A stretch of 13,049 bases of DNA from Actinomycetota bacterium (lineage in GTDB: Bacteria; Actinomycetota; Humimicrobiia; Humimicrobiales; Humimicrobiaceae): contig JACVJB010000007.1 of assembly GCA_015711775.1 (NCBI GenBank), forward strand, positions 1-13,049. Direction: 5' to 3'. Positions 1 through 13,049 of the stretch are shown one piece after another. Under the pieces are notes generated by a model. That model worked only from the letters and a program-made list of their open reading frames with translations. It was not told where the DNA came from and did no database searches. The position numbers and the translations under genes were made by a program. Position 1 is the first letter of the stretch. Every line of letters starts with the position of its first letter.

Positions 1-64
1 AGTCTATTAATTTATCCTGGCTTATTTGAGTATGTAGTGTGTAGGTTTAGTGAGTGAATGAAAT

Positions 65-93
65 TTGAAAAACATTTATTATCTTTTTAAAAT
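65..93 (+). promoter_or_regulatory. Candidate promoter of the SIMPL lipoprotein gene
   Basis: TTGAAA (65-70) and TAAAAT (88-93) are separated by exactly 17 bases, close to the sigma-70 consensus. The predicted start of transcription near 100 leaves a leader of only about 8 bases before the ATG at 108, too short to include a normal ribosome binding site. The region is very AT-rich, so a chance match is possible. The rest of 1-107 shows nothing else recognisable. Confidence 0.35.
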
Positions 94-107
94 GAATGGA
101 ATAAGTT

Positions 108-896
108 ATGAAAAATAAAAATCTTATCTTAAAAAAGCTGTTAAAAGTTATATCCTCTGTATTGATTTTTTTGCTGCCGGTATTCTTTCTTGCCGGTTGC
201 CTTGCGCCGGAAATACCTGAAATTGCACACACTGAAAGCGGCGCAAAAACAGCGCAGAACACCATAACAGTCAGCGGCAGCGCAACTGTTAAAATTCTTC
301 CTGATGAAGCTTTTATAAATATTTCAGCCATCACAGAAAAGCCCACATCCCAGGAAGCAGTGGATAAGAACAGCGCGCTTTCAAAGGCAATAATTGATGC
401 AGTCAATAATACAAATGCCCAAAATTTAAAAGTCCAGACCACAGGATACGACCTGAGCCCTTTATATGATTATTCAAAGGAAAGCGCCCCGCCTGAAATA
501 TATGCTTACAGGGTAACCAGCACAATTAAAGCAAAAACTACTGAGCTTGAAAAAATCGGTGAAATAATAGCAGCAGCAACAGAAGCTGGCGCAAACTCAA
601 TATCGTCCATAGGTTTTGATTTAACGGATGCCACTAAAAGATCAGCAAAAAATGATGCTCTTGAGGCAGCAACAACTGATGCAAACAACAAAGCAATTGC
701 AATAGCAAATTCAATGGGGCTAAAAATTGACAGTGTTTTATACATAATTGAAAATGAAGTATATTTCGGAAGCCCGTTTATGTCACCTGCCGGCATGGGT
801 GAGGCAAAAGCCGGGGATATAGCCGCTCCTGTGATCCTGCCCCAGGAAATAGAGGTCTCTGCCAATATCAGCGTTTCCTATCAGTTTATAAAATAG
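108..896 (+). CDS. SIMPL-domain (DUF541) lipoprotein
   Basis: A 262-residue exported protein. Residues 1-31 form a lipoprotein signal: a Lys-rich start, a hydrophobic stretch, then the lipobox LAGC with Cys31 as the likely lipidated residue, so the mature protein should sit on the outer face of a membrane. Residues about 52-258 match the SIMPL/DUF541 family, with the opening ITVSGSATVKILPDEAFI typical of these proteins. Family members (BP26, YggE-like) are periplasmic or surface proteins linked to stress tolerance or oligomeric channels; the exact role here is unknown. The length is normal for the family. The ATG at 108 is chosen because it gives a complete signal peptide; the only upstream Shine-Dalgarno trace is a weak GGA at 98-100. 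It is a single gene, convergent with the MFS gene, and ends in TAG. Confidence 0.85.
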   Translation: MKNKNLILKKLLKVISSVLIFLLPVFFLAGCLAPEIPEIAHTESGAKTAQNTITVSGSATVKILPDEAFINISAITEKPTSQEAVDKNSALSKAIIDAVNNTNAQNLKVQTTGYDLSPLYDYSKESAPPEIYAYRVTSTIKAKTTELEKIGEIIAAATEAGANSISSIGFDLTDATKRSAKNDALEAATTDANNKAIAIANSMGLKIDSVLYIIENEVYFGSPFMSPAGMGEAKAGDIAAPVILPQEIEVSANISVSYQFIK

Positions 897-919
897 CCCG
901 TGCAGCTATACCCTTTTTT
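893..919. terminator. Weak, possibly bidirectional terminator between convergent genes
   Basis: ATAGC (893-897) pairs with GCTAT (905-909) around a 7-base loop. Rightward it is followed by six T (914-919); on the other strand it is followed by TTTTAT. The stem overlaps the TAG stop of the lipoprotein gene and lies just beyond the TAA of the MFS gene, where a shared terminator is expected. The stem is only 5 bp, so this is tentative. Confidence 0.35.
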
Positions 920-2174
920 ATAATGGCAGTTTAAAAGATATGCTGTATTTTTTCACAGAAACCTTAAAAAGTAAAAATGAGGACGCAAATAATGCAGCAG
1001 CACAAATCATAAGAACATAATTTATGCCGTTAAGGCCAAAGTACTGCATTATAAATCCATTTAATGGCAGGAATATAATCTGCGCAAGCACAGCAACAGA
1101 GATTGTCAATCCAAGGATTGACCCTGATAAATCCGGATCCTCTTTTACTGCTATGGCATTAAGCAAAGGAAAAAACCCGGAATAAAATATTGCCTGCAGG
1201 ACAAGGAAAAATATCTTTATATATGTCAATGGGATGGCGCTGTAAATTAAAGAGCTTGCCGTGCCAAAAATACTGAGCAGCAGCAACAGGCTTGCCTCAT
1301 TTGTTTTTACAAGAATCTTGCCCGCTAAAATAACTCCAAGAGCATTAAACGCCCAGAATGCCGATAATATTAGAGAACCGTAGGACAGATTCACCCCAAG
1401 ACCCTCAAAGTAAGCAGTGAGCCATGTTGACAGAACTGAAAAAATCCCTATATAGAAAAACATTGCTGCGCAGCACGATATAATCAAGGGATTTTTTAAA
1501 ATTAAGGAGTAAGACTTGAGCGGTTTTTTAAATTCCTTTTCTTCTTTGCGCAATTCATGTTCGGACTCGCAACTTAAACTCTTTGCCCCAGATGCTGCAT
1601 TGCCGGATGTTATTTTTTTTATGGAACCGGAATATTTTAAGTAAAACAGCGTGATTATAAATGCAAAGCAAGCAAAAAACAGGAATGCATACCGGGTATT
1701 TATTTTCAGAAACAGCAGAACACTTATGGCAAGCGGACCTATAATTGCCCCTACATACCAGAAGAAGTTAAGCTTTATAAAAATAGGACTCTGCTTTCCA
1801 GGAAAAAATTTTGCAACATATGCATGTATGCCAGAGTCAAGAATACCGCAGCCGGCTCTAAAAAAAATAATTGCTGAAGTAAAAGCAGCAAGGCTTAATT
1901 TTATGCCATATATAAAGAACCCTGCAATTAATATTATCAGACCTGTAAGAATAATCTTTTTTAAACTGTATTTATCACAGAGTCTGCCAGCTATAAAAAC
2001 AGCTGCAAATGAAACGCTTGAGCCTGCAAAAAGAACTAACCCTATTGTATCATACCCTATACCAAGGATCTCAGAAATTAGCGGAATTAAGGGATCAATT
2101 AATGTGTAAGCAATCCCAAATAATATAAAAACAATAAATAAGAGGTTTAAATAACTTCTATTTGTTTTTTCCAT
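918..2174 (-). CDS. Major facilitator superfamily transporter
   Basis: A 418-residue integral membrane protein with about 12 hydrophobic helices and the usual split of six and six. A hydrophilic loop of roughly 40 residues, rich in Lys, Glu and Ser, lies between halves. The cytoplasmic motif A of the superfamily is visible after the second helix as GRLCDKYSLKKI (residues 63-74). The substrate cannot be read from sequence. A longer frame runs back to 2264, but its first 30 residues are polar and lie inside the upstream gene. The ATG at 2172-2174 is preferred because it gives a normal short N-terminus and overlaps the end of the activase fusion by 17 bases, which points to translational coupling. 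No clear Shine-Dalgarno is present, in keeping with coupling. The shared transcript suggests it may import or export a substrate or product of the dehydratase-type enzyme; that is inference. Confidence 0.85.
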   Translation of the reverse strand: MEKTNRSYLNLLFIVFILFGIAYTLIDPLIPLISEILGIGYDTIGLVLFAGSSVSFAAVFIAGRLCDKYSLKKIILTGLIILIAGFFIYGIKLSLAAFTSAIIFFRAGCGILDSGIHAYVAKFFPGKQSPIFIKLNFFWYVGAIIGPLAISVLLFLKINTRYAFLFFACFAFIITLFYLKYSGSIKKITSGNAASGAKSLSCESEHELRKEEKEFKKPLKSYSLILKNPLIISCCAAMFFYIGIFSVLSTWLTAYFEGLGVNLSYGSLILSAFWAFNALGVILAGKILVKTNEASLLLLLSIFGTASSLIYSAIPLTYIKIFFLVLQAIFYSGFFPLLNAIAVKEDPDLSGSILGLTISVAVLAQIIFLPLNGFIMQYFGLNGINYVLMICAAALFASSFLLFKVSVKKYSISFKLPL

Positions 2175-5100
2175 CTGTTTTGGAAAGTTTATGCTGTTTA
2201 GCCTGGTACATGAAAGCTTCCAGCCTTGTTTCGGTGGTTCCCTGTTCCAGGCCGTCAAACGCAAGGTTGAGCCATGGCGTTTTGTATTTCTCCCTTATGC
2301 TTTTTGAGGCGGCTGTCACCATTGTGCCCGGCATACAGGTAAACGGCAGCACATTTATAATGCCGTCAATATCCTTGCTTATCCAGTCAACTGATTTGCC
2401 AATGCTCAGTGCAGCCTCGCCAAACCATTTAATTATATATGGTTGGGCATTGTCCCATATTTCATAAATGCCGGCTTCATCATGCCCTTCAAAAACTGTG
2501 CCTTTAATCGGCCTTTCAAGAAGCCTGTGGTACCTGTCAAGAACTCTTTTAAATACGCGGTTTGCAATATAAAATTTTATTCCCTTTGCAAAATTGGGCA
2601 CAAGCCTTGCAAGCTCTGCAAAGTTTGTATCTGAGTCAAAGCTGTGATTTTTCCCGGAGACATAAGTTCCATTGTTTGAAGGCACAAAACCCCTGAGTAT
2701 TTTATATAAAATATCTTTCTGCTTAACTGAAATATCAAGCTTGCCTGTTGCATTTGTATGATATGCCCACTCGCTGAAATCAGGAAGCTCAGCTTCGCCG
2801 CCAAGCTCTTCAATTTTTTTAACAAGCTCATTATTGCTGTAAGGATGATTTCGTACATAGATTTCCCCCACAACACCCACCCTGGGCTTATTTTTTGCGC
2901 CTGTCTCAATATTTTCAAATTCAAGAACTGCAAGCTGAAGTATAGCTGTCATTACATCTATAACATTTCTGCCTTCAGAATTTTCAAGCGACTCAATAAC
3001 TTTCTGTAAAAGATCATTGTAAACCTTATCAGACTGGCCGGCATTAAGTTCATATGGCCTTGTCTTTCTTAAAAACTTGCTTAAATAATCAATGGTCATA
3101 ACTCCCGTTAGAGCTTTCAAATAAAGCCTTGCGCCTTTTTTACCCTGCATATCATACTCTTTGTAAAACTGGGCGCTTTCTACTGCGCCAGGCGCTATTA
3201 TGGGAACATTATACCCGAGCTCGTCCAGAAGGATTTTCTGCATTTTATTATACTGGCCGAACCTGCATGGCCCATGTGTTAGCGGCATAAGAAATGCGCA
3301 TTTATCCGGGTCATTGTATTTGAGTGTTTTTAAAATATCGCCGGTAGTAATTATATATGGGTAGCATTCCTTGCCAAGCGTATGTTTTCTCCCAAGTTCC
3401 AGCGTCTCATAATCAGAAAGCATAACCTCAGCTTCTATTCCTGATGCGTTAAAAGCCGCTTTTATGGCATAGGCTCCATCACCCATATGCGGGATATAGA
3501 TTTTCCTTCCATGGCTTCTCTTAAAGACAGGCTCCTTTTTATATGAATGCGGAAAAACGGTTTTATGCTCACCCTCAAGCTTTTTTATATTTCCAAGTGA
3601 ATCAAGAAAAGCTTCGCATCTTGTTATAACGCCGGCTCCCGCTGTGTGCTCATCTATTTCAATTTTAAGATATGGCCTGTCTATCTCACGCTCAAAGTAC
3701 TGCATTATAAAAGAATCGGGCCCGCAGCCGAAATTGGTGATATACACGGGGTAAAGGCGCTTGTCCCTTTTTATTATCTGGACAGCGCTTAAGATCCTGT
3801 CTCCAAACTCCCAGTACATATTGGGCCACTGGCTAAAAATATCCACATCATCAATTGGCAAATAGTCAAGAGGAATTGCCTGTATCCCTGCATCACGCAG
3901 CTTTCCAGGTATATCCATGCTGATGTTTGCATCGCAACTGTTATATGGCCTGCTTATAATAACTGCTGCAGTTTCATCTTTTCCAAGATTCTTGAAAAAT
4001 TCCCTGCCCTTTAGCTTTATGCTGTCATAAAAATACTGCTGAGCCCTGTAGGCAGCCTTTACCGCCTTAGCAACCTGCGGCCGGCTTTTGCCAAACTTTC
4101 TTCCAAGCTTCTGCAGCTGCTGGTTTTTTAAATATTCCCTGAAGCTGAAATTTATAAGCGGGTCAAGTATGATTTGCGGGTCAATGTCCATTGAGGCTTT
4201 TACAAAAGTTGATATGCCCTGGACAAATGGACAGGGGTAGCTGCCTGTCCTTGAACCTTCGATCCTGTCGTCGGTGCACGGCATGTCCCTCACTGAAGGA
4301 ATGAATATGTAGTCTGCGCCCCTGTCAAGCAGATTTTTTACATGGCCCAGCACCACTTTCATAGGAAAGCATGTCTCTGCCACAACATAAGAAAGGCCGT
4401 CATTTATTATCTTCTTGTTTGTTTTATCAGAAAGAATTACTTCCAGGCCCAGCTCACTGAAGAAAGCATCCCAGAACGGGTAAAATTCATAGGTTAGCAT
4501 TGTGTAAGGTATGCCGATTTTTATCCGGTTATCTTTTTGGGCGCCGCCATATTCTGGTACCAGTTCAGCATCAGCTGGCGGCAGGGGCACGCTGGTATCC
4601 ACTAAATCTTTTGCTTTACGCGTTTTTTCAGCGCTGTTTTTGCCCAATCTTTTATATGAATTTAGAAGCAGGCCGTCTCTTTGGCCAAAAAGATCCAATA
4701 ATTTATCGCCGCCTGATTTTTTCTTTTCATATTTTTCACACCTTCCGCCGTAATAAAAGGTATTCTCCTCATCTACGGTTACCTTTTTTATATCACATAC
4801 ATTGGGGCACCCTTTGCACTCAAAGGAGCTCTGGGAGTATTGAATATTTTTTATGTGTTCAAACCCGCGGAATTTTGACACTTTCGGCGCCTGCTGCATT
4901 GCCCTTATTGCTGTTCCTATTGCGCCTGTCACTTCATGGTTTTCAGGCACAATAATTGCTTTGCCCAGATAATTTTCAAAAGCTGCAACCACCGACCTGT
5001 TAAAGGCGACGGCGCCCTGGAAAAATATCCTTTTGCCTATTTTTTTGCGGGCAACAACCCTGTTTATATAATTAATGGCTATAGAATAGGCAAGGCCGCC

Positions 5101-6693
5101 TAATATATCTTCAACAGATGCGCCTTTCTGGTAATGAGAGTATACATTTGTTTCCATAAATACAGTGCATCTTTCACCAAGATTAAGCGGCGCCTTTGCA
5201 GTAAGGGCTTTTTCCCCGAAATCCTGTATTTTTATATCAAATCTTTCCGACTGCTCTTCAAGAAATGAGCCGGTGCCTGCTGCGCATATTTTATTCATTT
5301 CAAAATCAACAACAACACCCTTTTCAAGGGATATATATTTTGAGTCCTGCCCGCCTATTTCAAAAATCGTATCAACGCTGGGGTCAATATCTGCCGCCGC
5401 AGTTGCCTGGGCGGTAATTTCATTTATTATAGTGTCTGCGCCAACAAGGTCGCCTATAAGATATCTGCCGGAACCGGTGGTGCCCGCTGCCCTTACATTT
5501 ATTTTATCCCCGATGCTGTTTCCGATAATTTCTATTCCCTGCCTAACAGCCTCAATTGGCCTGCCGGCAGTTCGCAGATATACTTTGTATATAAGTTTTT
5601 TCTCAGAGTCAATGGCAACAACATTTGTGCTTATGGAGCCAACATCTATTCCGATATAGGCATCAGTTTTCTGTCCTTTTGCCGCATTTTTAAATACATA
5701 TCCGCTTGCTTTGCCTTCTGCGCCATTTGTTTGGGGAAGCGTTGATTTTTCTATTCTTAAAGGCTTAAATATTTCCTTTTTGTATTCATGGGAAAGGTTG
5801 TATTTTTCAAGAAGCTGGTATGCCTTTAAAAGATTTATCTTTTGAATATGAGAAGATTTCTGTATTGCAGCGCCATCCCGGCCCGCTAAATTACTGCAGT
5901 TTTTTGCAGCTTTTGCTGTAAGCGTTTCTTTTTCAAGCAATGAAAGAGCTGCGCCTATTGCTCCCAGCGATTCATTATACTTGGGTACAATAATATCTTG
6001 CTTGAGTATGTCATTAAAGGCCCTTATCATTGCCCTGTTAAATGAAACCCCTCCACAGAAGATAATAGGCGGCTCAAATTTCTTGCCTTTTACAATGCCT
6101 GATTTAAAGCTTCTTGCCATTGCATAACAAAGACCAAGCGCAATATCCTCATCTTTTGCAGCTTCCTGCTGAAGATGTATCATGTCTGATTTTGCAAAAA
6201 CGCTGCATCTGCCTGCTATTGTTGAAGGTTTTACGGATTTAAGCGCAAGATCTGAGAACTGCTCAATGGTTAAACCGAATCTTGTTGCCTGCTGGTCAAG
6301 AAAAGATCCGGTTCCTGCAGCGCAAAGCTCATTCATGGCATAATCCCCTGCAGCAAGATCTATAAATTTGGAATCCTGGCCGCCGATTTCAATAACCGAC
6401 ATTACATCCGGATAAAGTTTCTTCACAGATGTAGTGATTGCTTCAATTTCGTTAATGAAAGATGTATCAAGAACAGATGCAAGTGTCTTGCCCCCCAGCC
6501 CGGTAAAAGCAATGCCGGCAGTTTGCCCGAACTTACCGCCATCATACAGCTTTTTAAGGTCAGAAGCTATAAGCTTTGAGGGCTCACCCAAATGCCTTGT
6601 ATAAGGCATGACATCAACTATATCGCAGTCACTGTTAATTACTGCCCTGTTTACGCTTATCGCGCCAATGTCATATCCAATATAGTGGTCCAA
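2158..6693 (-). CDS. Double acyl-CoA dehydratase activase fused to DUF2229/HgdB-like domains
   Basis: A 1511-residue member of the 2-hydroxyglutaryl-CoA dehydratase activator (BadF/BadG/HgdC) fusion family. Two ASKHA ATPase domains stand in tandem. The first, about residues 1-255, has IGYDIG, IEIGGQDSKF, CAAGTGSF (Cys124) and GRCSVF (Cys163). The second, about 344-600, has IGIDVG, FEIGGQDSKY, CAAGTGSF (Cys470) and ERCTVF (Cys509). In HgdC the equivalent two cysteines hold a 4Fe-4S cluster at the dimer interface, which passes an electron to the dehydratase on ATP hydrolysis. A Cys-rich patch follows (Cys626, 629, 633, 652), then DUF2229 and HgdA/B-like regions from about 725 onward, with further candidate ligands at Cys775, 806, 821, 920, 990, 1110, 1143 and 1453. 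The protein should be cytoplasmic and oxygen-sensitive. The start is TTG, supported by GGAGG at 6704-6708 and a strong promoter. The true substrate is unknown. The first gene of an operon with the MFS transporter; stop is TAG. Confidence 0.94.
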   Translation of the reverse strand: MDHYIGYDIGAISVNRAVINSDCDIVDVMPYTRHLGEPSKLIASDLKKLYDGGKFGQTAGIAFTGLGGKTLASVLDTSFINEIEAITTSVKKLYPDVMSVIEIGGQDSKFIDLAAGDYAMNELCAAGTGSFLDQQATRFGLTIEQFSDLALKSVKPSTIAGRCSVFAKSDMIHLQQEAAKDEDIALGLCYAMARSFKSGIVKGKKFEPPIIFCGGVSFNRAMIRAFNDILKQDIIVPKYNESLGAIGAALSLLEKETLTAKAAKNCSNLAGRDGAAIQKSSHIQKINLLKAYQLLEKYNLSHEYKKEIFKPLRIEKSTLPQTNGAEGKASGYVFKNAAKGQKTDAYIGIDVGSISTNVVAIDSEKKLIYKVYLRTAGRPIEAVRQGIEIIGNSIGDKINVRAAGTTGSGRYLIGDLVGADTIINEITAQATAAADIDPSVDTIFEIGGQDSKYISLEKGVVVDFEMNKICAAGTGSFLEEQSERFDIKIQDFGEKALTAKAPLNLGERCTVFMETNVYSHYQKGASVEDILGGLAYSIAINYINRVVARKKIGKRIFFQGAVAFNRSVVAAFENYLGKAIIVPENHEVTGAIGTAIRAMQQAPKVSKFRGFEHIKNIQYSQSSFECKGCPNVCDIKKVTVDEENTFYYGGRCEKYEKKKSGGDKLLDLFGQRDGLLLNSYKRLGKNSAEKTRKAKDLVDTSVPLPPADAELVPEYGGAQKDNRIKIGIPYTMLTYEFYPFWDAFFSELGLEVILSDKTNKKIINDGLSYVVAETCFPMKVVLGHVKNLLDRGADYIFIPSVRDMPCTDDRIEGSRTGSYPCPFVQGISTFVKASMDIDPQIILDPLINFSFREYLKNQQLQKLGRKFGKSRPQVAKAVKAAYRAQQYFYDSIKLKGREFFKNLGKDETAAVIISRPYNSCDANISMDIPGKLRDAGIQAIPLDYLPIDDVDIFSQWPNMYWEFGDRILSAVQIIKRDKRLYPVYITNFGCGPDSFIMQYFEREIDRPYLKIEIDEHTAGAGVITRCEAFLDSLGNIKKLEGEHKTVFPHSYKKEPVFKRSHGRKIYIPHMGDGAYAIKAAFNASGIEAEVMLSDYETLELGRKHTLGKECYPYIITTGDILKTLKYNDPDKCAFLMPLTHGPCRFGQYNKMQKILLDELGYNVPIIAPGAVESAQFYKEYDMQGKKGARLYLKALTGVMTIDYLSKFLRKTRPYELNAGQSDKVYNDLLQKVIESLENSEGRNVIDVMTAILQLAVLEFENIETGAKNKPRVGVVGEIYVRNHPYSNNELVKKIEELGGEAELPDFSEWAYHTNATGKLDISVKQKDILYKILRGFVPSNNGTYVSGKNHSFDSDTNFAELARLVPNFAKGIKFYIANRVFKRVLDRYHRLLERPIKGTVFEGHDEAGIYEIWDNAQPYIIKWFGEAALSIGKSVDWISKDIDGIINVLPFTCMPGTMVTAASKSIREKYKTPWLNLAFDGLEQGTTETRLEAFMYQAKQHKLSKTDGKNK

Positions 6694-6703
6694 GCCTTAT
6701 TAT

Positions 6704-6763
6704 CCTCCGGTTATTATTGCAATAAATCTAAGGTATTATAAACATTTAAGGGAAATATATCAA
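6704..6763 (-). promoter_or_regulatory. Strong sigma-70 type promoter and ribosome binding site for the activase operon
   Basis: Read on the minus strand, TTGATA (6758-6763) is followed after 17 bases by a perfect TATAAT (6735-6740). The start of transcription would be near 6728, giving a leader of about 35 bases. GGAGG at 6704-6708 lies 10 bases before the TTG start and is the main reason for accepting that codon. This is the best promoter match in the window. A small palindrome in the same gap, CGGAT-AAA-ATCCG (6777-6789), lies upstream of the -35 box and could be an operator or nothing. Confidence 0.65.
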
Positions 6764-6832
6764 AGCGTTATTAGCCGGATAAAATCCGCGCAATCACAAA
6801 ATTTTACAAATATAATTCCAATATTTGAAAAT

Positions 6833-6853
6833 GAATAATTCAAATCATTATTC
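6833..6853 (-). terminator. Possible terminator hairpin at the end of the hydrolase gene
   Basis: GAATAAT (6833-6839) and ATTATTC (6847-6853) form a 7-bp stem with a 7-base loop, overlapping the TAA stop of the alpha/beta hydrolase gene. The stem has a single G-C pair and only a short T run follows on the minus strand, so termination here is uncertain. Confidence 0.25.
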
Positions 6854-7852
6854 TAAAAAAGGAATAACAATATCATTGAACACGCCTGCCTTTTCCTCCA
6901 TTGGCACATGACCGGCACCATTTATTATTTCAAGCTGGCTGCCCTTTATATAGGTGTTAAATGCATGGGCATGCTCCACATTTATCCACTGATCATTATT
7001 ACCCCATATTATAAGGACAGGTATATCAATGCTTTCAAGTACTCTTTTTATATCATATGGAGCATTTCCCTTAAGTATGTGCCTGTATACAAGGTTTGTA
7101 TTTTTAACTTTAAACGGTTCAAGGTAATAAGAAATCACTTCTTCAGTAAAATAGCCTTCATCATAAAATGCGGACGAAAGAAAGCTCTTAAACCTTTGGC
7201 TGTTTAAAAAAAGATTATAATAAAGTATATCAACCACTGCCTGCGGAAGGGCGCCGGAATAAATCGGGGCGCTATTTTCCAGGCCCACTGTTCCCTCCAG
7301 CCCTGCGCTGTCTATTAAAATAATTTTATCAAATTTTTCGGGCTTTTTATCATATGCAATTAAAGCAATCTTTCCGCCCATTGAATGCCCGGCCACAATT
7401 GCTTTTTCAATGCCTTTCTTTTCCATGAATTCAAGCAGTATTTCTGCCTGCTCGGCATGGGAATAATCAGATTCTAATGCTCTTTCAGAATAGCCGAAAC
7501 CCTTAAGGTCGATTGCATATACATTAAACCCTGCATCTGCAAGGGCGCCTGTATTATACCTGTAAGTAAAAGCGCCGCCGCCAAGGCCATGCACAAGAAT
7601 TATATTTACAGCAGGAGCTTTCATGCTGCCATCATCATTTATTTTTGCTTTGTTTTCAGTGTAGTAAATATCTGCTCCGCGCAATTTTATAAAGTTGCCA
7701 GGCAGCTGCATTTTTTGCGGCTCAAGCACAGAAAACTTTTTAATATTTGAAACTGCAAAAGCCCAGTAGGAAAAGAATGCAATTGTGATCAAAACTAAAA
7801 ATGAAACAACTGCAATAACGCTGATTTTTATTTTTTTCGAACTATTTTTCAT
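6848..7852 (-). CDS. Membrane-anchored alpha/beta-fold hydrolase
   Basis: A 334-residue protein with one N-terminal membrane helix (about residues 10-32) followed by an alpha/beta-hydrolase domain. The catalytic triad can be read directly: nucleophile Ser157 in GHSMGG, acid Asp287 in WGNNDQWI, and His315 in GAGHVPMEE. The oxyanion-hole motif is HGLGGG (about 88-93). The helix probably holds the enzyme at the outer face of the membrane. The family includes esterases, lipases and C-C hydrolases; the substrate is not predictable. The frame is open back to a TTG at 7927, but the ATG at 7850-7852 is preferred because it gives a short Lys-rich N-terminus directly before the membrane helix; no good Shine-Dalgarno is present at either. 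It is transcribed alone, away from the TauE gene, and ends 154 bases before the activase operon. Confidence 0.88.
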   Translation of the reverse strand: MKNSSKKIKISVIAVVSFLVLITIAFFSYWAFAVSNIKKFSVLEPQKMQLPGNFIKLRGADIYYTENKAKINDDGSMKAPAVNIILVHGLGGGAFTYRYNTGALADAGFNVYAIDLKGFGYSERALESDYSHAEQAEILLEFMEKKGIEKAIVAGHSMGGKIALIAYDKKPEKFDKIILIDSAGLEGTVGLENSAPIYSGALPQAVVDILYYNLFLNSQRFKSFLSSAFYDEGYFTEEVISYYLEPFKVKNTNLVYRHILKGNAPYDIKRVLESIDIPVLIIWGNNDQWINVEHAHAFNTYIKGSQLEIINGAGHVPMEEKAGVFNDIVIPFLE

Positions 7853-7898
7853 ATTTAAATTTATATTTTTTCTCTGCTGAAATAATGATTTTATATAA

Positions 7899-7927
7899 AT
7901 AATGGTGAAAAAAATATTTATTGTCAA
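7899..7927 (-). promoter_or_regulatory. Candidate promoter of the alpha/beta hydrolase
   Basis: On the minus strand a perfect TTGACA (7922-7927) is followed after 17 bases by CATTAT (7899-7904), four of six matches to the -10 consensus. A start of transcription near 7892 would give a 40-base leader before the ATG at 7852. This supports the shorter reading of the gene, since the longer frame would begin at the -35 box itself. Confidence 0.5.
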
Positions 7928-7981
7928 CTGTAATTAAAGATGTTATAAATTCTGCCTTAATTCTTCTTCTTGAAGTTGATG

Positions 7982-8017
7982 TGCAATTTGTTTAAACTTT
8001 AAAGATTGCAATAAAAT
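7982..8017 (+). promoter_or_regulatory. Inverted repeat and weak promoter upstream of the TauE gene
   Basis: TGCAAT (7982-7987) and ATTGCA (8005-8010) form an inverted repeat with 17 bases between the arms, enclosing the palindrome GTTTAAAC (7990-7997). A weak promoter overlaps it: TTGTTT (7988-7993), 18 bases, TAAAAT (8012-8017). The arrangement could be an operator over a promoter. Six-base arms in AT-rich DNA also arise by chance. Confidence 0.25.
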
Positions 8018-8033
8018 TCTGGCACTGTTTTAA

Positions 8034-8816
8034 ATGGAATATCTAAAATATATATTAATAGGTATTGCCGGAGGCACATTATCAGGGCTTCTTGGAATTG
8101 GCGGGGGTTTTATAGTAATACCTGCGCTTATTTATTTTACAAAAACCGGCGCAAAGCAGGCCACCGCAATATCAATGGTGCAAATATTTTTTGCTTCAGC
8201 CTTCGGGACACTTTTTAACTACCTTAAAAAAACCCTTAGGATAAAATATGCGCTTTATTTTGGCATTGCCAGCATGGGGTTTGCTTTCGCAGGTTCTTAC
8301 CTTACAAAGTATTTTTCCGATACCACAATAAAAATTATTTACCTCAGCGCAGTAACTCTTTCGCTTGCGCTGTTTATGCTGCGGTCATATCTTGAAAAAA
8401 TTGGGAAAGTTGCAGAATGCTGCAGAATTGAAGATGCGGCACTTGAAAAGAGAAAGCTTTTCAAAGCAATCCCTCTTGGCATGGCTGCAGGATTTCTGGG
8501 CGGAATTCTTGGAGTTGGCGGAGGATTTTTATATGTGCCGCTGCTTGTTTTTTTCCTGGACCTTCCGTTAAAAGTAGCTGTCGGAACATCACTTATGATA
8601 ATTCTTATTAATTCAATACCGGGAGTTATTGGAAAAATATTATCTGTTGAGTTTAACTATATAACAGCCCTTATAATTGCGCTCAGTTCTGTTGCCGGCG
8701 CCAGGCTTGGCGTATATATAAATCAAAAAGTAAAACCTGTAGTTATAAAGATTGTTTTCATTATTATGCTTCTTGTTATAATCGGCAGAGTTTCTTTTGA
8801 TTTGGCAGGCTTTTAA
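8034..8816 (+). CDS. TauE/SafE-family anion exporter (DUF81)
   Basis: A 260-residue integral membrane protein of the TauE/SafE family (PF01925), with about 8 membrane helices. The family's internal duplication is plain: residues about 10-30 carry GGTLSGLLGIGGGFIVIPAL, and the second half repeats it near 150-170 as GFLGGILGVGGGFLYVPLL. Family members move sulfite, sulfoacetate, taurine-related or other organic anions across the cytoplasmic membrane; which one here is not visible. Length is typical. The ATG at 8034 begins directly before the first helix, and only a poor Shine-Dalgarno precedes it. It is a single gene divergent from the alpha/beta hydrolase; no sulfur-metabolism gene is nearby. 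Confidence 0.92.
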   Translation: MEYLKYILIGIAGGTLSGLLGIGGGFIVIPALIYFTKTGAKQATAISMVQIFFASAFGTLFNYLKKTLRIKYALYFGIASMGFAFAGSYLTKYFSDTTIKIIYLSAVTLSLALFMLRSYLEKIGKVAECCRIEDAALEKRKLFKAIPLGMAAGFLGGILGVGGGFLYVPLLVFFLDLPLKVAVGTSLMIILINSIPGVIGKILSVEFNYITALIIALSSVAGARLGVYINQKVKPVVIKIVFIIMLLVIIGRVSFDLAGF

Positions 8817-8952
8817 CTGCAGGACATTTTGTTCTTTTACTTTTCGCCTTAATATCTCATTAGCTGCCTGATTTTTTTCCCAGTGCCCTGCTTTTTTTCG
8901 TTTTTTCCTGCATTAATTTTTATTTTACTGGAAAATAAATGCCTTTAGTATA

Positions 8953-9007
8953 TATAATAAACAACAATACAAATAAAAAAATATTGATATAAATCAATCT
9001 GAAAGGA
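8953..9007 (+). promoter_or_regulatory. -10 box, FNR-like site and ribosome binding site upstream of the GpsA-type gene
   Basis: A perfect TATAAT lies at 8953-8958; no convincing -35 box precedes it. Downstream, 8984-8997 reads TTGAT-ATAA-ATCAA, an exact match to the FNR half-site consensus TTGAT-N4-ATCAA. If transcription starts near 8965 the box is centred at about +26, a repressing position. AAAGGA at 9002-9007 is a good Shine-Dalgarno 4 bases from the ATG. The gap 8817-8950 contains several T-rich runs but no hairpin I can defend. Confidence 0.45.
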
Positions 9008-9011
9008 AAAC

Positions 9012-10067
9012 ATGTCTGAGCAGATAAAAGCAGCAGTACTTGGCGCAGGATACATGGGAAGCGCAATAACTTTTCCCCTTTCTGATAACCGGATTAAGGT
9101 CAATCTCTGGGGCACATGGCTTGATGATAAACTAGTTGAATCTTCACTCAGGGGTTTTCATCCAAAACTTAAAAAGACACTTCCGGAAAATGTGAGCCTT
9201 TATTACTGGCAGGACCTCGGCGCTGCACTTGAAGATGTAAATGTAATATTTATCGCAGTAACAAGTGAAGGATTTGTAAATATATTCCAGAAAATGCTGG
9301 ATAATATAGACAGGGATAAAGATTATACTTTTTTTAAGCTTACAAAAGGATTTGTAGAGTACAGGGGCAAAATAGTCAGGGCAACTGAAGCAGCGTTTGA
9401 TATCTTTGCTGAAAAATTTCCTGATAAAGAGTTAAAAATAGTAACTGTCGGAGGTCCGGTAAGAGCACTTGACCTTTCACACAGGGTTGTATCTGCGAGC
9501 ATGTACGGATTATCTGACAGTAAAATAAAAGATACTGCCAGATCTTTCTGTACAGACTATTACCGGATTTTTATAAACGATGACATTAAAAGCGTTGAGC
9601 TGTGCTCAGCATTTAAAAATATCTATGCAATGGCTTCAGGCATTTGTGACGGGCTTTACGGGGGGCAAAAAGGAGGCTTTTATTACAACACTGTATCTTT
9701 CCTGTTTAACCAGGCCTGCCTTGAAATTGCGGAAATAGTCCAGGCAGCAGGCGGAAACAGGCAGACTGCGTTTGATCTTGCAGGCATCGGCGACCTTCAT
9801 GTCACTTCTACTGCAGGCCGTAACAGAAAGTTCGGGGAAATGGTCGGAAAAGGAATGGACGGCCATGACGCTTTCAAAGAAATGTATGGCCAGGGAGAGT
9901 ATGGGGAAGGATACATGGCGCTTAAGCTGGCCATTCCATGGATAAAAAGCGAGATACCGGATATTACCGTAAAAACACCGCTTCTTTTTTCCCTTAATAA
10001 CATTATATTTAATAAATACGAGCCAGCAGGAGAATTTTCCAAACTTATGTCAAACCTTGGCGTATAA
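9012..10067 (+). CDS. NAD(P)-dependent glycerol-3-phosphate dehydrogenase (GpsA-type)
   Basis: A 351-residue cytoplasmic enzyme of the GpsA family, which interconverts dihydroxyacetone phosphate and sn-glycerol 3-phosphate and so supplies the backbone for phospholipids. Visible signatures: the Rossmann nucleotide-binding loop GAGYMGSA (residues 11-18); LTKGF with Lys112; GGPVRALDLS (147-156), in the place of the family's SGPSFA-E motif; the catalytic region ELCSAFKNIYAMASG with Lys202; and GIGDLHVTSTAGRNRKFG (258-275), matching the family's GLGDL...SRN-FG signature. Length is slightly above the usual 330-340. Several motif positions differ from textbook GpsA (for example GGPVRAL for SGPSFAE, and TAGRN for TCTSxxSRN), so a divergent subfamily with another sugar or polyol phosphate substrate is possible. 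The ATG is well supported by AAAGGA. It is a single gene, convergent with the membrane protein at 10117. Confidence 0.85.
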   Translation: MSEQIKAAVLGAGYMGSAITFPLSDNRIKVNLWGTWLDDKLVESSLRGFHPKLKKTLPENVSLYYWQDLGAALEDVNVIFIAVTSEGFVNIFQKMLDNIDRDKDYTFFKLTKGFVEYRGKIVRATEAAFDIFAEKFPDKELKIVTVGGPVRALDLSHRVVSASMYGLSDSKIKDTARSFCTDYYRIFINDDIKSVELCSAFKNIYAMASGICDGLYGGQKGGFYYNTVSFLFNQACLEIAEIVQAAGGNRQTAFDLAGIGDLHVTSTAGRNRKFGEMVGKGMDGHDAFKEMYGQGEYGEGYMALKLAIPWIKSEIPDITVKTPLLFSLNNIIFNKYEPAGEFSKLMSNLGV

Positions 10068-10116
10068 AAGACGGGAAAATCAAAATAATCATACATTAAC
10101 TTTTTTACCTGGGAAT

Positions 10117-10716
10117 TCAGAATACATACCCGAAAATCTGGTAGATTTCATAAAATGCTGCACCCAAAAGTAAGACTACCACTACCGGAGCCGAAACAGC
10201 CAGCACAGCTTTATTTTTAAGCCTGTTTTTATAAAGATGCTCACCAGTTGCAAGAGCGATGCAGCGATAAAATGCTTCAACTGAAAAAAGTATAATAACT
10301 TCGTAAGGTATTGGAATATTTCTTATTACTGAGCCTGTAAAAAGGAGTATCATCATTAAAAAACCGGTTACAATAGAAAGCGGCAGAAGCAGCCTGAAAT
10401 AACCCAGAATGAAATACGCAATTGTAGACACAAGATTTCCTACAATAATTGCCATAAACACTGCAATATATTTTGAGCCTTGCGCATACTGGTTAAGTCC
10501 GAAAAGCCCCTGTATGAATTTGTATCTTGTGACAAAATTTAGGCAAAAATCAGTAAAAAAATAAAAAAAGGCATAGCCTGCTGCAGCGCCAAGTAAAAGC
10601 CAGCCGATGCATTTGCCAAGTATTATCCAGTAATTATTGTTCAATCTGCCAGGACTGCTTATTAAACCCCCTGTTTGAGCTGATAATTTTTTTTTATGTT
10701 TATACTGGTAAGCCAT
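10117..10716 (-). CDS. Multi-spanning membrane protein of unknown function, possibly SpoIIM-like
   Basis: A 199-residue protein that I do not recognise firmly. The first 29 residues are basic and polar; hydrophobic segments lie at about 30-54, 83-105, 107-128, 138-157 and 168-192. The spacing of helices, a helix-breaking P-I-P-Y-E at 135-139, and the G/N-containing helix before it recall the SpoIIM/DUF95 fold, but the diagnostic PHG-E motif is not intact. It begins 9 bases after the HD-GYP stop on the same strand, so the two are probably co-transcribed. The nearest AGGA lies about 16 bases before the ATG, so translation may depend on coupling. It ends in TGA. This matters because UGA encodes glycine at the right end of the window; a table-25 reading here would add only four residues before TAA, so this gene alone does not decide the code. 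Confidence 0.75.
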   Translation of the reverse strand: MAYQYKHKKKLSAQTGGLISSPGRLNNNYWIILGKCIGWLLLGAAAGYAFFYFFTDFCLNFVTRYKFIQGLFGLNQYAQGSKYIAVFMAIIVGNLVSTIAYFILGYFRLLLPLSIVTGFLMMILLFTGSVIRNIPIPYEVIILFSVEAFYRCIALATGEHLYKNRLKNKAVLAVSAPVVVVLLLGAAFYEIYQIFGYVF

Positions 10717-10725
10717 TATTTTCTA

Positions 10726-12015
10726 TTAATGATTTCCTGATTCACTTAACTCAAGCGATACTGCAGGTATCATTTTTTTGGTTAAAATATCTATCATAAC
10801 ATCGCATGCTTTTTCATCAAACTGGGTTCCCCTGTTTATTTGAAGCTCTGCAATACTTTCCTCTATTGTCTTTGCCCTGCGGTACGGCCTGTCAGTTGAC
10901 ATTGCATCAAATGAATCAGCAACGCATAAAATCCTTGCAAAAAGAGGCAGCTCGTCATCTTTTTTCCCGAAGGGATACCCTGTTCCGTCAACCCTCTCAT
11001 GATGATAAAGAATTGCTGTGGCCCTGTCCTTTAAGAAATCAATCTGTTTTACTATTTCATAGCTTACAACAGGATGCTTCCTTATTTCCTTCCAGTCTTT
11101 ATCTGTAAGCTTTGTTGTCTTATTTAAGATAGACAAATCTATCTGGATTTTTCCTATATCATGCAGGCTTGCAAGGTTTCGCACTATTTCAATATCATAT
11201 TCATTAAGCCGCAGCCCCCTTGCAATCATTTCACTGTAGTCTGCAACCCTCATGGAATGCCCCGCTGTATATATATCCTTTGCTTCCATGATCTTTACTA
11301 TCTGCATAATGCTGTTAAGCAGCGTGCGCCGCTCCTTCACCCTTAGAAGATAAGTATACTGGGCGATTATAAGAGGAAGGGACGTAAAAATCAGTGTAAA
11401 GGGACTAAATCGTATATATAAAAAGGCAATTGCAATAGCCATTGCTGAAAGGAAGAACTGGAACGGTACGATCCAGGCAAAATTAAAAACCCATATATTT
11501 AAAACATTCATGCCTGTGCTTATGGATATAGCGCCTGCTGTAAGCGTGGTGTTTAATATAAAGAATATATATGTTACAAGAAATATTACCCAAATGTTTC
11601 TTGCATAGAAGAAATTGGTCTGGCTCCTGTCATAGAAGGATTCAAAAAAAATAGCAGCAGCAGCAAATGAAAGCAGGTACTGGCCTGCATTGAAAAGATG
11701 TTTGTAATAAGGGACGCGCCTGATGTAATCTTTTATATTAAGTACAGAAACTGCAGTTACAAGCATAGCTGTTGCAGGTCCAAAAATTATTAATGATGCA
11801 AGAGAAATTCCAAATATTACAGAAACATTACCGGTTTTTGGAAGTGGCGCATTAAGGTTATCGGACGTAAAAAAAAGAATTCCAAAAATTAAAAGCCCTA
11901 GTAAAGAAATATTCCTGTATTTAATGAGCGTATAAATAAGAGATGAAATGCCTGCTAAAAAAATTGTAAAAACATATAACAATAAATACCATTTAGTTCC
12001 TTCTTTTTTCAACAA
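10726..12015 (-). CDS. Membrane-bound HD-GYP cyclic-di-GMP phosphodiesterase
   Basis: A 429-residue protein with two parts. Residues 1 to about 222 contain six or more hydrophobic helices and act as a membrane sensor or anchor that I cannot assign to a named family. Residues about 245-415 are a complete HD-GYP domain: AGHSMRVADYS (His253), the HD dyad in LHDIGK (His285, Asp286), His314, HHERVDGTGYP (338-348) containing the GYP motif, and ADSFDAMSTDRPYR (366-379). All expected metal ligands are present, so it should hydrolyse cyclic-di-GMP in the cytoplasm and lower its level, influencing surface attachment or motility. The start is TTG at 12013-12015, followed by a second TTG. It is supported by AAAGAGG (12020-12026) at good spacing. 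It is the leading clear gene of a minus-strand group. A long inverted repeat brackets its start region. Stop is TAA. Confidence 0.92.
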   Translation of the reverse strand: MLKKEGTKWYLLLYVFTIFLAGISSLIYTLIKYRNISLLGLLIFGILFFTSDNLNAPLPKTGNVSVIFGISLASLIIFGPATAMLVTAVSVLNIKDYIRRVPYYKHLFNAGQYLLSFAAAAIFFESFYDRSQTNFFYARNIWVIFLVTYIFFILNTTLTAGAISISTGMNVLNIWVFNFAWIVPFQFFLSAMAIAIAFLYIRFSPFTLIFTSLPLIIAQYTYLLRVKERRTLLNSIMQIVKIMEAKDIYTAGHSMRVADYSEMIARGLRLNEYDIEIVRNLASLHDIGKIQIDLSILNKTTKLTDKDWKEIRKHPVVSYEIVKQIDFLKDRATAILYHHERVDGTGYPFGKKDDELPLFARILCVADSFDAMSTDRPYRRAKTIEESIAELQINRGTQFDEKACDVMIDILTKKMIPAVSLELSESGNH

Positions 12016-12051
12016 GAGACCTCTTTACTCATTAAATACAGGAATTCTTTA
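11902..12051. repeat. Long inverted repeat bracketing the HD-GYP translation start
   Basis: Positions 11911-11928 (ATTCCTGTATTTAATGAG) and 12028-12045 are exact reverse complements over 18 bases. A 3-base bulge then allows 6 more pairs (11902-11907 with 12046-12051), so 24 bases pair in all. The arms are 99 bases apart. One arm lies immediately upstream of the HD-GYP Shine-Dalgarno, the other encodes about residues 29-35 of the protein. In the messenger RNA this would place the ribosome binding site and start codon in the loop of a long hairpin. Confidence 0.8.
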
Positions 12052-12085
12052 GCCTTTTTCATGATAATTTACAGAAAGAGCTATA

Positions 12086-12157
12086 TTACCATCTGACTGT
12101 TCCGCATATTCCGATCAGTGAACCGAGAACGAGTAATATTTTCCAAAGCTTGCTCAT
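12086..12157 (-). CDS. Possible 23-residue hydrophobic peptide
   Basis: A 23-codon frame, ATG to TAA, that is preceded by a strikingly good ribosome binding site: a purine run GGAGAGGAGGGG (12162-12173) ending 4 bases before the ATG. The peptide starts MSKLWK, has a hydrophobic core (about residues 5-18, WKILLVLGSLIGIC) and ends in a short basic tail with Arg22 and Trp23. It could span a membrane once. It has a single cysteine at residue 18 but lacks the layout of an AgrD-type autoinducer precursor. It lies 70 bases upstream of the HD-GYP gene on the same strand and could be its leader peptide or a small membrane partner. No function is assigned. It is the last feature left of the change in genetic code; its promoter would lie across the junction and is not visible. 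Confidence 0.4.
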   Translation of the reverse strand: MSKLWKILLVLGSLIGICGTVRW

Positions 12158-12190
12158 TATTTCCCCTCCTCTCCTGTCTAAAAATGCTTA
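12158..12190. other. Likely junction between a standard-code and a UGA-glycine genome
   Basis: Everything to the left reads in the standard code with no internal UGA. The sequence from 12190 rightward opens two divergent genes only when UGA is glycine: 9 of their 14 glycines are UGA. The left-hand peptide's ribosome binding site extends to about 12176, and the right-hand gene's stop codon is at 12188-12190, so a join most likely falls between. No direct repeat or mobile-element end is visible. A chimeric assembly or amplification is the simplest cause. Confidence 0.65.
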
Positions 12191-12493
12191 AAAACTATAA
12201 TAAATTTTAAATATTAATATAACTATAAGTATTATGAAAACCTCGATTTGTTTCTCCGGACCAGCATGAACATGAGTCAATACAGCCTGACTTTTGCTTG
12301 GTAATTTATTATCATCCAAATGAGATATAGCATCTCTTTGATCTTCTACAAAATCATGTAACTGCTTATCATCACTAACTCTTTGTATATCTCAGTTTTG
12401 AGCAAAAGGTTTGTTGGCTTTGGGCGTCCAACTACGCTTTCAATATGATTGAGATTGATATCCAGATTTATCAGAAGTTTTTTTGTAATTCAT
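12188..12493 (-). CDS. Small tail-anchored protein read in translation table 25 (UGA = Gly)
   Basis: A 101-codon gene that is invisible under the standard code because of two in-frame UGAs, at codon 18 (12440-12442, context QSY-G-KR) and codon 34 (12392-12394, context AQN-G-DI). Read with UGA as glycine it is continuous from ATG to TAA. The first 80 residues are polar, rich in Ser, Gln, Lys and Asp and probably loosely structured; residues about 85-99 (VFIILIVILIFKIYY) form one membrane helix at the very C-terminus, so the bulk likely faces the cytoplasm. Trp22 is encoded by TGG, so UGA is not simply Trp. Other glycines are GGA and GGT. No Shine-Dalgarno precedes the ATG; a TATAAT sits 11 bases upstream. 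It diverges from tsaD. I do not recognise a family. Confidence 0.75.
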
Positions 12494-12504
12494 ATTTTGC
12501 TTTA

Positions 12505-12533
12505 ATTATAAAATACTTTCACTATAGTATAAA
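12505..12533 (-). promoter_or_regulatory. Candidate promoter of the small tail-anchored gene, near-leaderless
   Basis: On the minus strand TTTATA (12528-12533) is followed after 17 bases by a perfect TATAAT (12505-12510). The expected start of transcription, near 12498, leaves only about 5 bases before the ATG, so the message would be nearly leaderless. That fits the absence of a Shine-Dalgarno. Confidence 0.45.
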
Positions 12534-12605
12534 TATAAATATTCCAAAAAGCAAAAAATCAACAACATTTTTATCCAAACAATATCTTTAGACAATTATA
12601 TATTT

Positions 12606-12611
12606 TATAAT
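12606..12611 (+). promoter_or_regulatory. -10 box upstream of tsaD
   Basis: A perfect TATAAT ends 19 bases before the tsaD ATG. No properly spaced -35 box is seen; TAGACA at 12589-12594 is only 11 bases away. The leader would be about 13 bases and contains no Shine-Dalgarno. The 137-base gap 12494-12630 is otherwise plain AT-rich sequence shared by the two divergent genes. Confidence 0.4.
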
Positions 12612-12630
12612 TAGTACCACCAAATCAGCA

Positions 12631-13049
12631 ATGATACGCACATTAGCTATAGAAACATCATGCGACGATACATCAATATGAATAATTTCATTCGATGGAA
12701 AATTTTTCAAAACTCAAAAATTGTTGGCATATTCACAGATACAAGACCATCAACAATATTGATGAGTAGTGCCAGAGATAGCATCTAGACTACATTTTGA
12801 CAAAATCATCCAAGTATTAAAAAAAATCCTGCTTGCCGACAGGAATTGCTGATTTGCCAAAAACTCTCAAATAGACTTTATCAGCGTGACTACCCATCCA
12901 TGATTGCCAGGCTCTCTAGTAGTGGGCAAAGCAGTCGCCAATTTGCTTTGAGCATATTATGACAAACCAGTAATCGAAACCAATCACATTCACTGACATA
13001 TTTTTTCAATTTTGCTAGAAAGAGATATTCATTCCATCAAATTCCCTAT
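12631..13049 (+). CDS. tsaD: tRNA threonylcarbamoyltransferase TsaD, 5' part, table 25 (UGA = Gly)
   Basis: The first 139 codons of TsaD (Kae1/Gcp/YgjD), which with TsaB and TsaE transfers threonylcarbamoyl to A37 of ANN-decoding tRNAs (t6A). The gene runs off the right edge; family members are about 330-350 residues. There are no TAA or TAG codons, but seven UGAs at codons 17, 44, 45, 74, 91, 107 and 122. Read as glycine they restore family motifs: ETSCDDTSIG (8-17), YGGVVPEIASRLH (43-55), HPGLPGSLVVGKA (89-101) and NHIHGH (118-123). The last includes His119 and His123, the expected metal ligands. Three other glycines are GGA or GGC. The ATG at 12631 gives the standard MIRTLAIETSC start. Its code points to Absconditabacteria (SR1) or Gracilibacteria (BD1-5). 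Under the standard code the gene would be missed or called a pseudogene. Confidence 0.95.

Follow-up and report, generated by a model that had tools for sequence, protein, structure and literature searches.

The reading of UGA as glycine, NCBI translation table 25, is known from the Absconditabacteria (SR1) and the Gracilibacteria (BD1-5). For a BD1-5 population it has proteomic support: PMC4032931 reports 97 peptides that fit the glycine version alone. The passages of PMC8629427 that deal with this code give a glycine-acceptor rule for the tRNA (G1:C72, C2:G71, G3:C70 and U73), and they describe Chloroflexi assemblies contaminated by Absconditabacteria contigs, which were recognised by stops limited to a part of the genome. 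The DNA analysed here (the window) comprises 13,049 bases and is the entire contig C7 of the bin G000. Its tsaD fragment resembles the table 25 systems in carrying TGA on glycine columns, and its nearest relative, UBA6263, has a TCA tRNA that fits the glycine rule in those passages and no prfB over the cut-off. However, unlike table 25 organisms, the bin that carries the fragment does not use table 25. As in the contamination described in the same passages, the recoded stops occupy a small part of the assembly and trace by homology to bacteria with UGA as glycine. In contrast to those cases, which concern contigs, foreign and bin DNA are here fused in a single contig. We consider it very probable that the contig is a chimera of a standard-code bacterium and two scraps, not adjacent to each other, from a genome of the Absconditabacteria/Gracilibacteria type. 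The features of the window are:

1-12233, no strand assigned: the bin's own part of the contig, in the standard code (eight genes without inner TGA; Pfam matches; congeners G003 and G002). The genes are SIMPL protein, MFS transporter, acyl-CoA dehydratase activase, alpha/beta hydrolase, TauE/SafE, glycerol-3-phosphate dehydrogenase-like, unknown and MASE9-HD protein
12234-12251, plus strand: six codons, MKTSIC, in the register of an oxidoreductase start, with the first join at or near here (five table 25 relatives; DNA unlike UBA6263)
12252-12326, plus strand: start of a 2-oxoacid:acceptor oxidoreductase (POR family), table 25, cut after about 30 codons (97% to UBA6263, G001:C15:3108-3182)
12302-12326, no strand assigned: second join (the UBA6263 matches overlap; the exact match to C15 runs as far as 12323)
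12324-12493, minus strand: N-terminal stretch of a table 25 gene that runs divergently from tsaD, belongs to no known family and is broken off at the second join (likeness to UBA6263 locus L033)
12631-13049, plus strand: first 139 codons of tsaD, table 25 (open frame, profile matches, likeness to UBA6263, glycine columns)

The acyl-CoA dehydratase activase (2158-6693, minus strand) is a single chain of 1,511 amino acids that combines a DUF2229 domain with two stretches matching BcrAD_BadFG. A single plus-strand gene in table 25 over 12234-12488 was considered and rejected: only its first 30 or so codons are oxidoreductase, and the rest lies opposite the divergent gene.

From an ATG at 12631 the tsaD frame (12631-13047, plus strand) stays open under table 25 over 139 codons to the contig end, with exactly seven in-frame TGA and no TAA or TAG, as the initial annotation had stated. 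Glycine is encoded seven times by TGA and three times by GGN. The identification as TsaD, previously made by eye, was confirmed by TIGR03723 (4.1e-37, 128 bits, profile positions 2-122 of 314), by PF00814 (5.2e-23) and by solved structures of the TsaD/Kae1 kind (20 distinct sequences; best 8iey_A, 8.9e-23). The whole-protein cut-off of TIGR03723 (296.1) is out of reach for an N-terminal third, and a full-length TsaD is not present, as the contig end truncates the gene at codon 139. ARAGORN found no tRNA in the window.

A scan of genome contigs returned at least 538 relatives, and the best 80 of these together with the bin's own TsaD gave 81 loci. The matched stretch is free of TGA in 53 of them and holds at least one TGA in 26; L041 and L044, which have none there, were removed before glycine was counted because by identity they adjoin the TGA-bearing loci. 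Among the 53 TGA-free loci, glycine stands at G44 in 48, at G45 in 53, at G91 in 53 and at G122 in 43, and at G17, G74 and G107 in 0, 0 and 4, respectively (mean glycine share of the remaining 132 columns: 0.036). In the 26 TGA-bearing loci, columns 44, 45, 91 and 122 are glycine throughout, and columns 17, 74 and 107 in 11, 21 and 12 cases. Of the seven UGA codons, four fall on family-wide glycine columns and three on columns that are glycine in some recoding relatives only. The claim that UGA marks glycines defining the family holds for G44, G45, G91 and G122 and was overstated for G17, G74 and G107.

Among the best 80 of the at least 538 relatives, the closest to the fragment is the TsaD of UBA6263 (G001; DJVF01000040.1, L033:5001-6080), a MAG assigned by NCBI to the Patescibacteria group, without rank. 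The two proteins are 93% identical over 139 residues, and contig C27 of UBA6263 matches window 12302-13049 at 87% DNA identity, spacer and divergent neighbour included. Both genes use table 25 and share the same divergent neighbour. They differ in that the UBA6263 gene is complete (359 amino acids; TIGR03723 305.7 bits, above the cut-off of 296.1) and lies on its own 21.4 kb contig, whereas that of the window is cut at codon 139 and fused to other DNA. A tree of 82 rows joins the fragment and UBA6263 as a pair (100/99). With midpoint rooting, one branch (95/87) separates all 27 TGA-bearing rows, together with L041 and L044, from the bin's own TsaD; the TGA label still requires three changes on this tree. 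Titles in the group that holds the TGA-bearing rows include candidate division SR1, Absconditabacteria, Gracilibacteria and one Peribacteria (L041). The expectation that the fragment's relatives are table 25 bacteria was borne out. L041, titled Candidatus Peribacteria, and L044 group with the table 25 TsaDs yet have no TGA in the matched stretch, for which sparse use of TGA, a different code or a bin with the wrong label may account. A short palindrome of the UBA6263 tsaD occurs once in L033 and in neither the window nor locus L173.

The divergent gene of UBA6263 (L033:2970-4865, minus strand) encodes 631 amino acids with 30 TGA read as glycine, and the protein had no match in Pfam or NCBIfam. 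The window's divergent gene is 45% identical to it over 86 residues, in a comparison that extends beyond the join. The whole oxidoreductase frame of UBA6263, on contig C15, matches PF01558 and TIGR03710. On the same contig (L173:1-2701, equal to G001:C15:500-3200) glycine codon usage shifts within about 100 bases: an Elp3-like frame, named by eye, with 30 GGN and two TGA adjoins the oxidoreductase frame with 16 TGA and six GGN. The latter frame ends early, and the remainder of such a protein matches the start of contig C11; C15 may itself be chimeric.

Inspection of all 34 tRNA matches of UBA6263 revealed a TCA-anticodon tRNA of 74 bases, labelled SeC by ARAGORN. Read by eye, it carries the glycine identity elements G1:C72, C2:G71, G3:C70 and U73. 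The release-factor matches comprised one full-length protein and one 33-position scrap of 17.7 bits. The full-length protein is RF1 (NF001859 433.3 bits, cut-off 400; TIGR00019 422.6, just below its cut-off of 423.25; TIGR00020 246.9, cut-off 370), and no prfB over the cut-off was found in this fragmented MAG as assembled. The nearest relative of the source thus combines a tRNA-Gly(UCA) with no RF2. Together with the glycine columns, this tRNA and RF1 uphold the reading of UGA as glycine, and table 25, for the tsaD fragment. The source strain differs from UBA6263 and would share its code machinery.

The bin itself gave the opposite result. G000 comprises 1,438,379 bases in 294 contigs and is rated 67.68% complete with 0.73% contamination. 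It encodes prfB on contig C9 (489.4 bits, cut-off 370), and a second prfB-type match on C14 reached 297.5 bits, below the cut-off. The main prfB frame is preceded by a short one that ends in CTT TGA C, and the protein resumes in another frame, an arrangement that we take to be the classic autoregulatory RF2 frameshift; the SPF of the protein is presumably the RF2 tripeptide. The prfB gene (G000:C9:9289-10332, minus strand) directly follows a frame whose terminal motif we take to be SEC-C-like. The bin's own TsaD, on contig C49, is a stop-free frame of 354 amino acids; among sequences selected for their similarity to the fragment, it groups with Ezakiella only weakly (83/84). None of the 26 tRNA matches in this 67.7% complete bin has a TCA anticodon. 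In the left side of the window, the eight genes have no inner TGA and one has TGA as its stop. That the window's own genome uses table 25, as the initial annotation implied, was therefore not borne out: prfB is present and a TCA tRNA is absent from the 26 matches. Its proposed check for tRNA-Gly(UCA) and absence of RF2 was negative for the bin and positive for UBA6263, the fragment's nearest relative. The two outcomes are compatible only if the bin is not where the fragment comes from.

The joins near 12234 and at 12302-12326 mark where the foreign DNA was attached. A search with window 11600-12640 in 61 genomes (the bin and 60 relatives) gave matches in 21. The congeners match up to 12224 (G003) and 12233 (G002); beyond its match, G002 runs on with different AT-rich DNA, and G003 has just 32 further bases to the end of its contig. 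A search with 12160-13049 in 49 genomes of the UBA6263 family (UBA6263 included) gave matches in 35. UBA6263 was matched in two places, on C15 for 12252-12326 (97%) and on C27 for 12302-13049 (87%). In G107, too, the two matches are on separate contigs (282 and 252 kb), and both lie well inside them. The foreign DNA consists of about 90 bases of oxidoreductase start followed by 0.7 kb of the tsaD region, with the oxidoreductase and the divergent gene both cut where these meet.

At the first join, the window reads MKTSIC in register with the oxidoreductase start, which is MKVSIA, MKISIG or MRISIG in UBA6263 and four other table 25 relatives. The DNA of 12234-12251 differs from that of UBA6263, and the next 47 bases are identical; either a strain difference or a third source may be the cause. 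No exact copy of 12234-12251 was found in 40 relatives of the bin. With two mismatches allowed, four of the 40 had one match each (the reversed control had matches in three of 41 genomes), and none of these then read as oxidoreductase. Just upstream, the 32 bases of 12184-12215 match contig C44 (33-64), with short matches in four other genomes too; these look like AT-rich intergenic similarity. Within G000, 10,417 and 5,501 bases of UBA6263 matched only two stretches, both on C7.

Junctions inside one contig, and a bin otherwise free of such DNA at the two loci searched, are also what a real horizontal transfer might leave, in which a standard-code bacterium integrated rearranged table 25 DNA with a tsaD that its own ribosomes could not read. 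We regard this as improbable: two joins fall in a stretch of about 90 bases, both foreign genes are truncated, the fragment extends to the last base of the contig, and beyond 12233 the congener G002 has DNA of its own. If true, it would mean a recent passage of DNA across a genetic-code barrier between two bacteria. Against the chimera reading, the bin is rated only 0.73% contaminated and no second foreign piece appeared at the two loci searched. Against it also stands the mismatch at 12234-12251, which one simple join does not explain, and the separation of the two scraps in UBA6263 is weak evidence, since G001 is itself a fragmented MAG.

Two further explanations have a negligible probability in our view. 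That UGA codes for glycine in the bin's own organism, with tsaD as one of its genes, is favoured by the tsaD piece itself. It was rejected on the bin's own standard-code TsaD, on a prfB with a UGA-dependent frameshift site and on the tRNA set with no TCA among 26 matches, and a TGA-terminated gene stands in the same window; the missing third of the genome keeps its probability above zero. The fragment might instead derive from a phage or plasmid of a table 25 host, and a tsaD-like stretch indeed occurs in 20 of 50,697 phage records. However, all 20 are below 60% identity, a scan of viral contigs gave one relative at 38%, and a contig of a bacterial MAG carries the gene and its divergent neighbour with 87% DNA identity. 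On the phage records and viral contigs covered, a recoded phage was rejected.

In the chimera that we favour, positions 1 to about 12233 would come from the standard-code bacterium of the bin and the last 0.8 kb from a relative of UBA6263 in which a tRNA-Gly(UCA) decodes UGA as glycine and RF2 is absent. The oxidoreductase start and the region of tsaD and its divergent gene would have been linked to one another and to the end of the bin's sequence, probably outside a cell and most likely while the library was amplified or the short reads were assembled. In its cell of origin the gene was most likely an ordinary tsaD, its UGA codons read by tRNA-Gly(UCA) free of RF2 competition, to judge from UBA6263. 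In the bin's organism, translation of the fragment would terminate at codon 17. Both code and gene are already known, and the biology is ordinary, as is the artefact. What the contig offers is a warning that a chimeric contig can be given away by in-frame stops where conserved residues are expected, even in a bin with so low a contamination rating.
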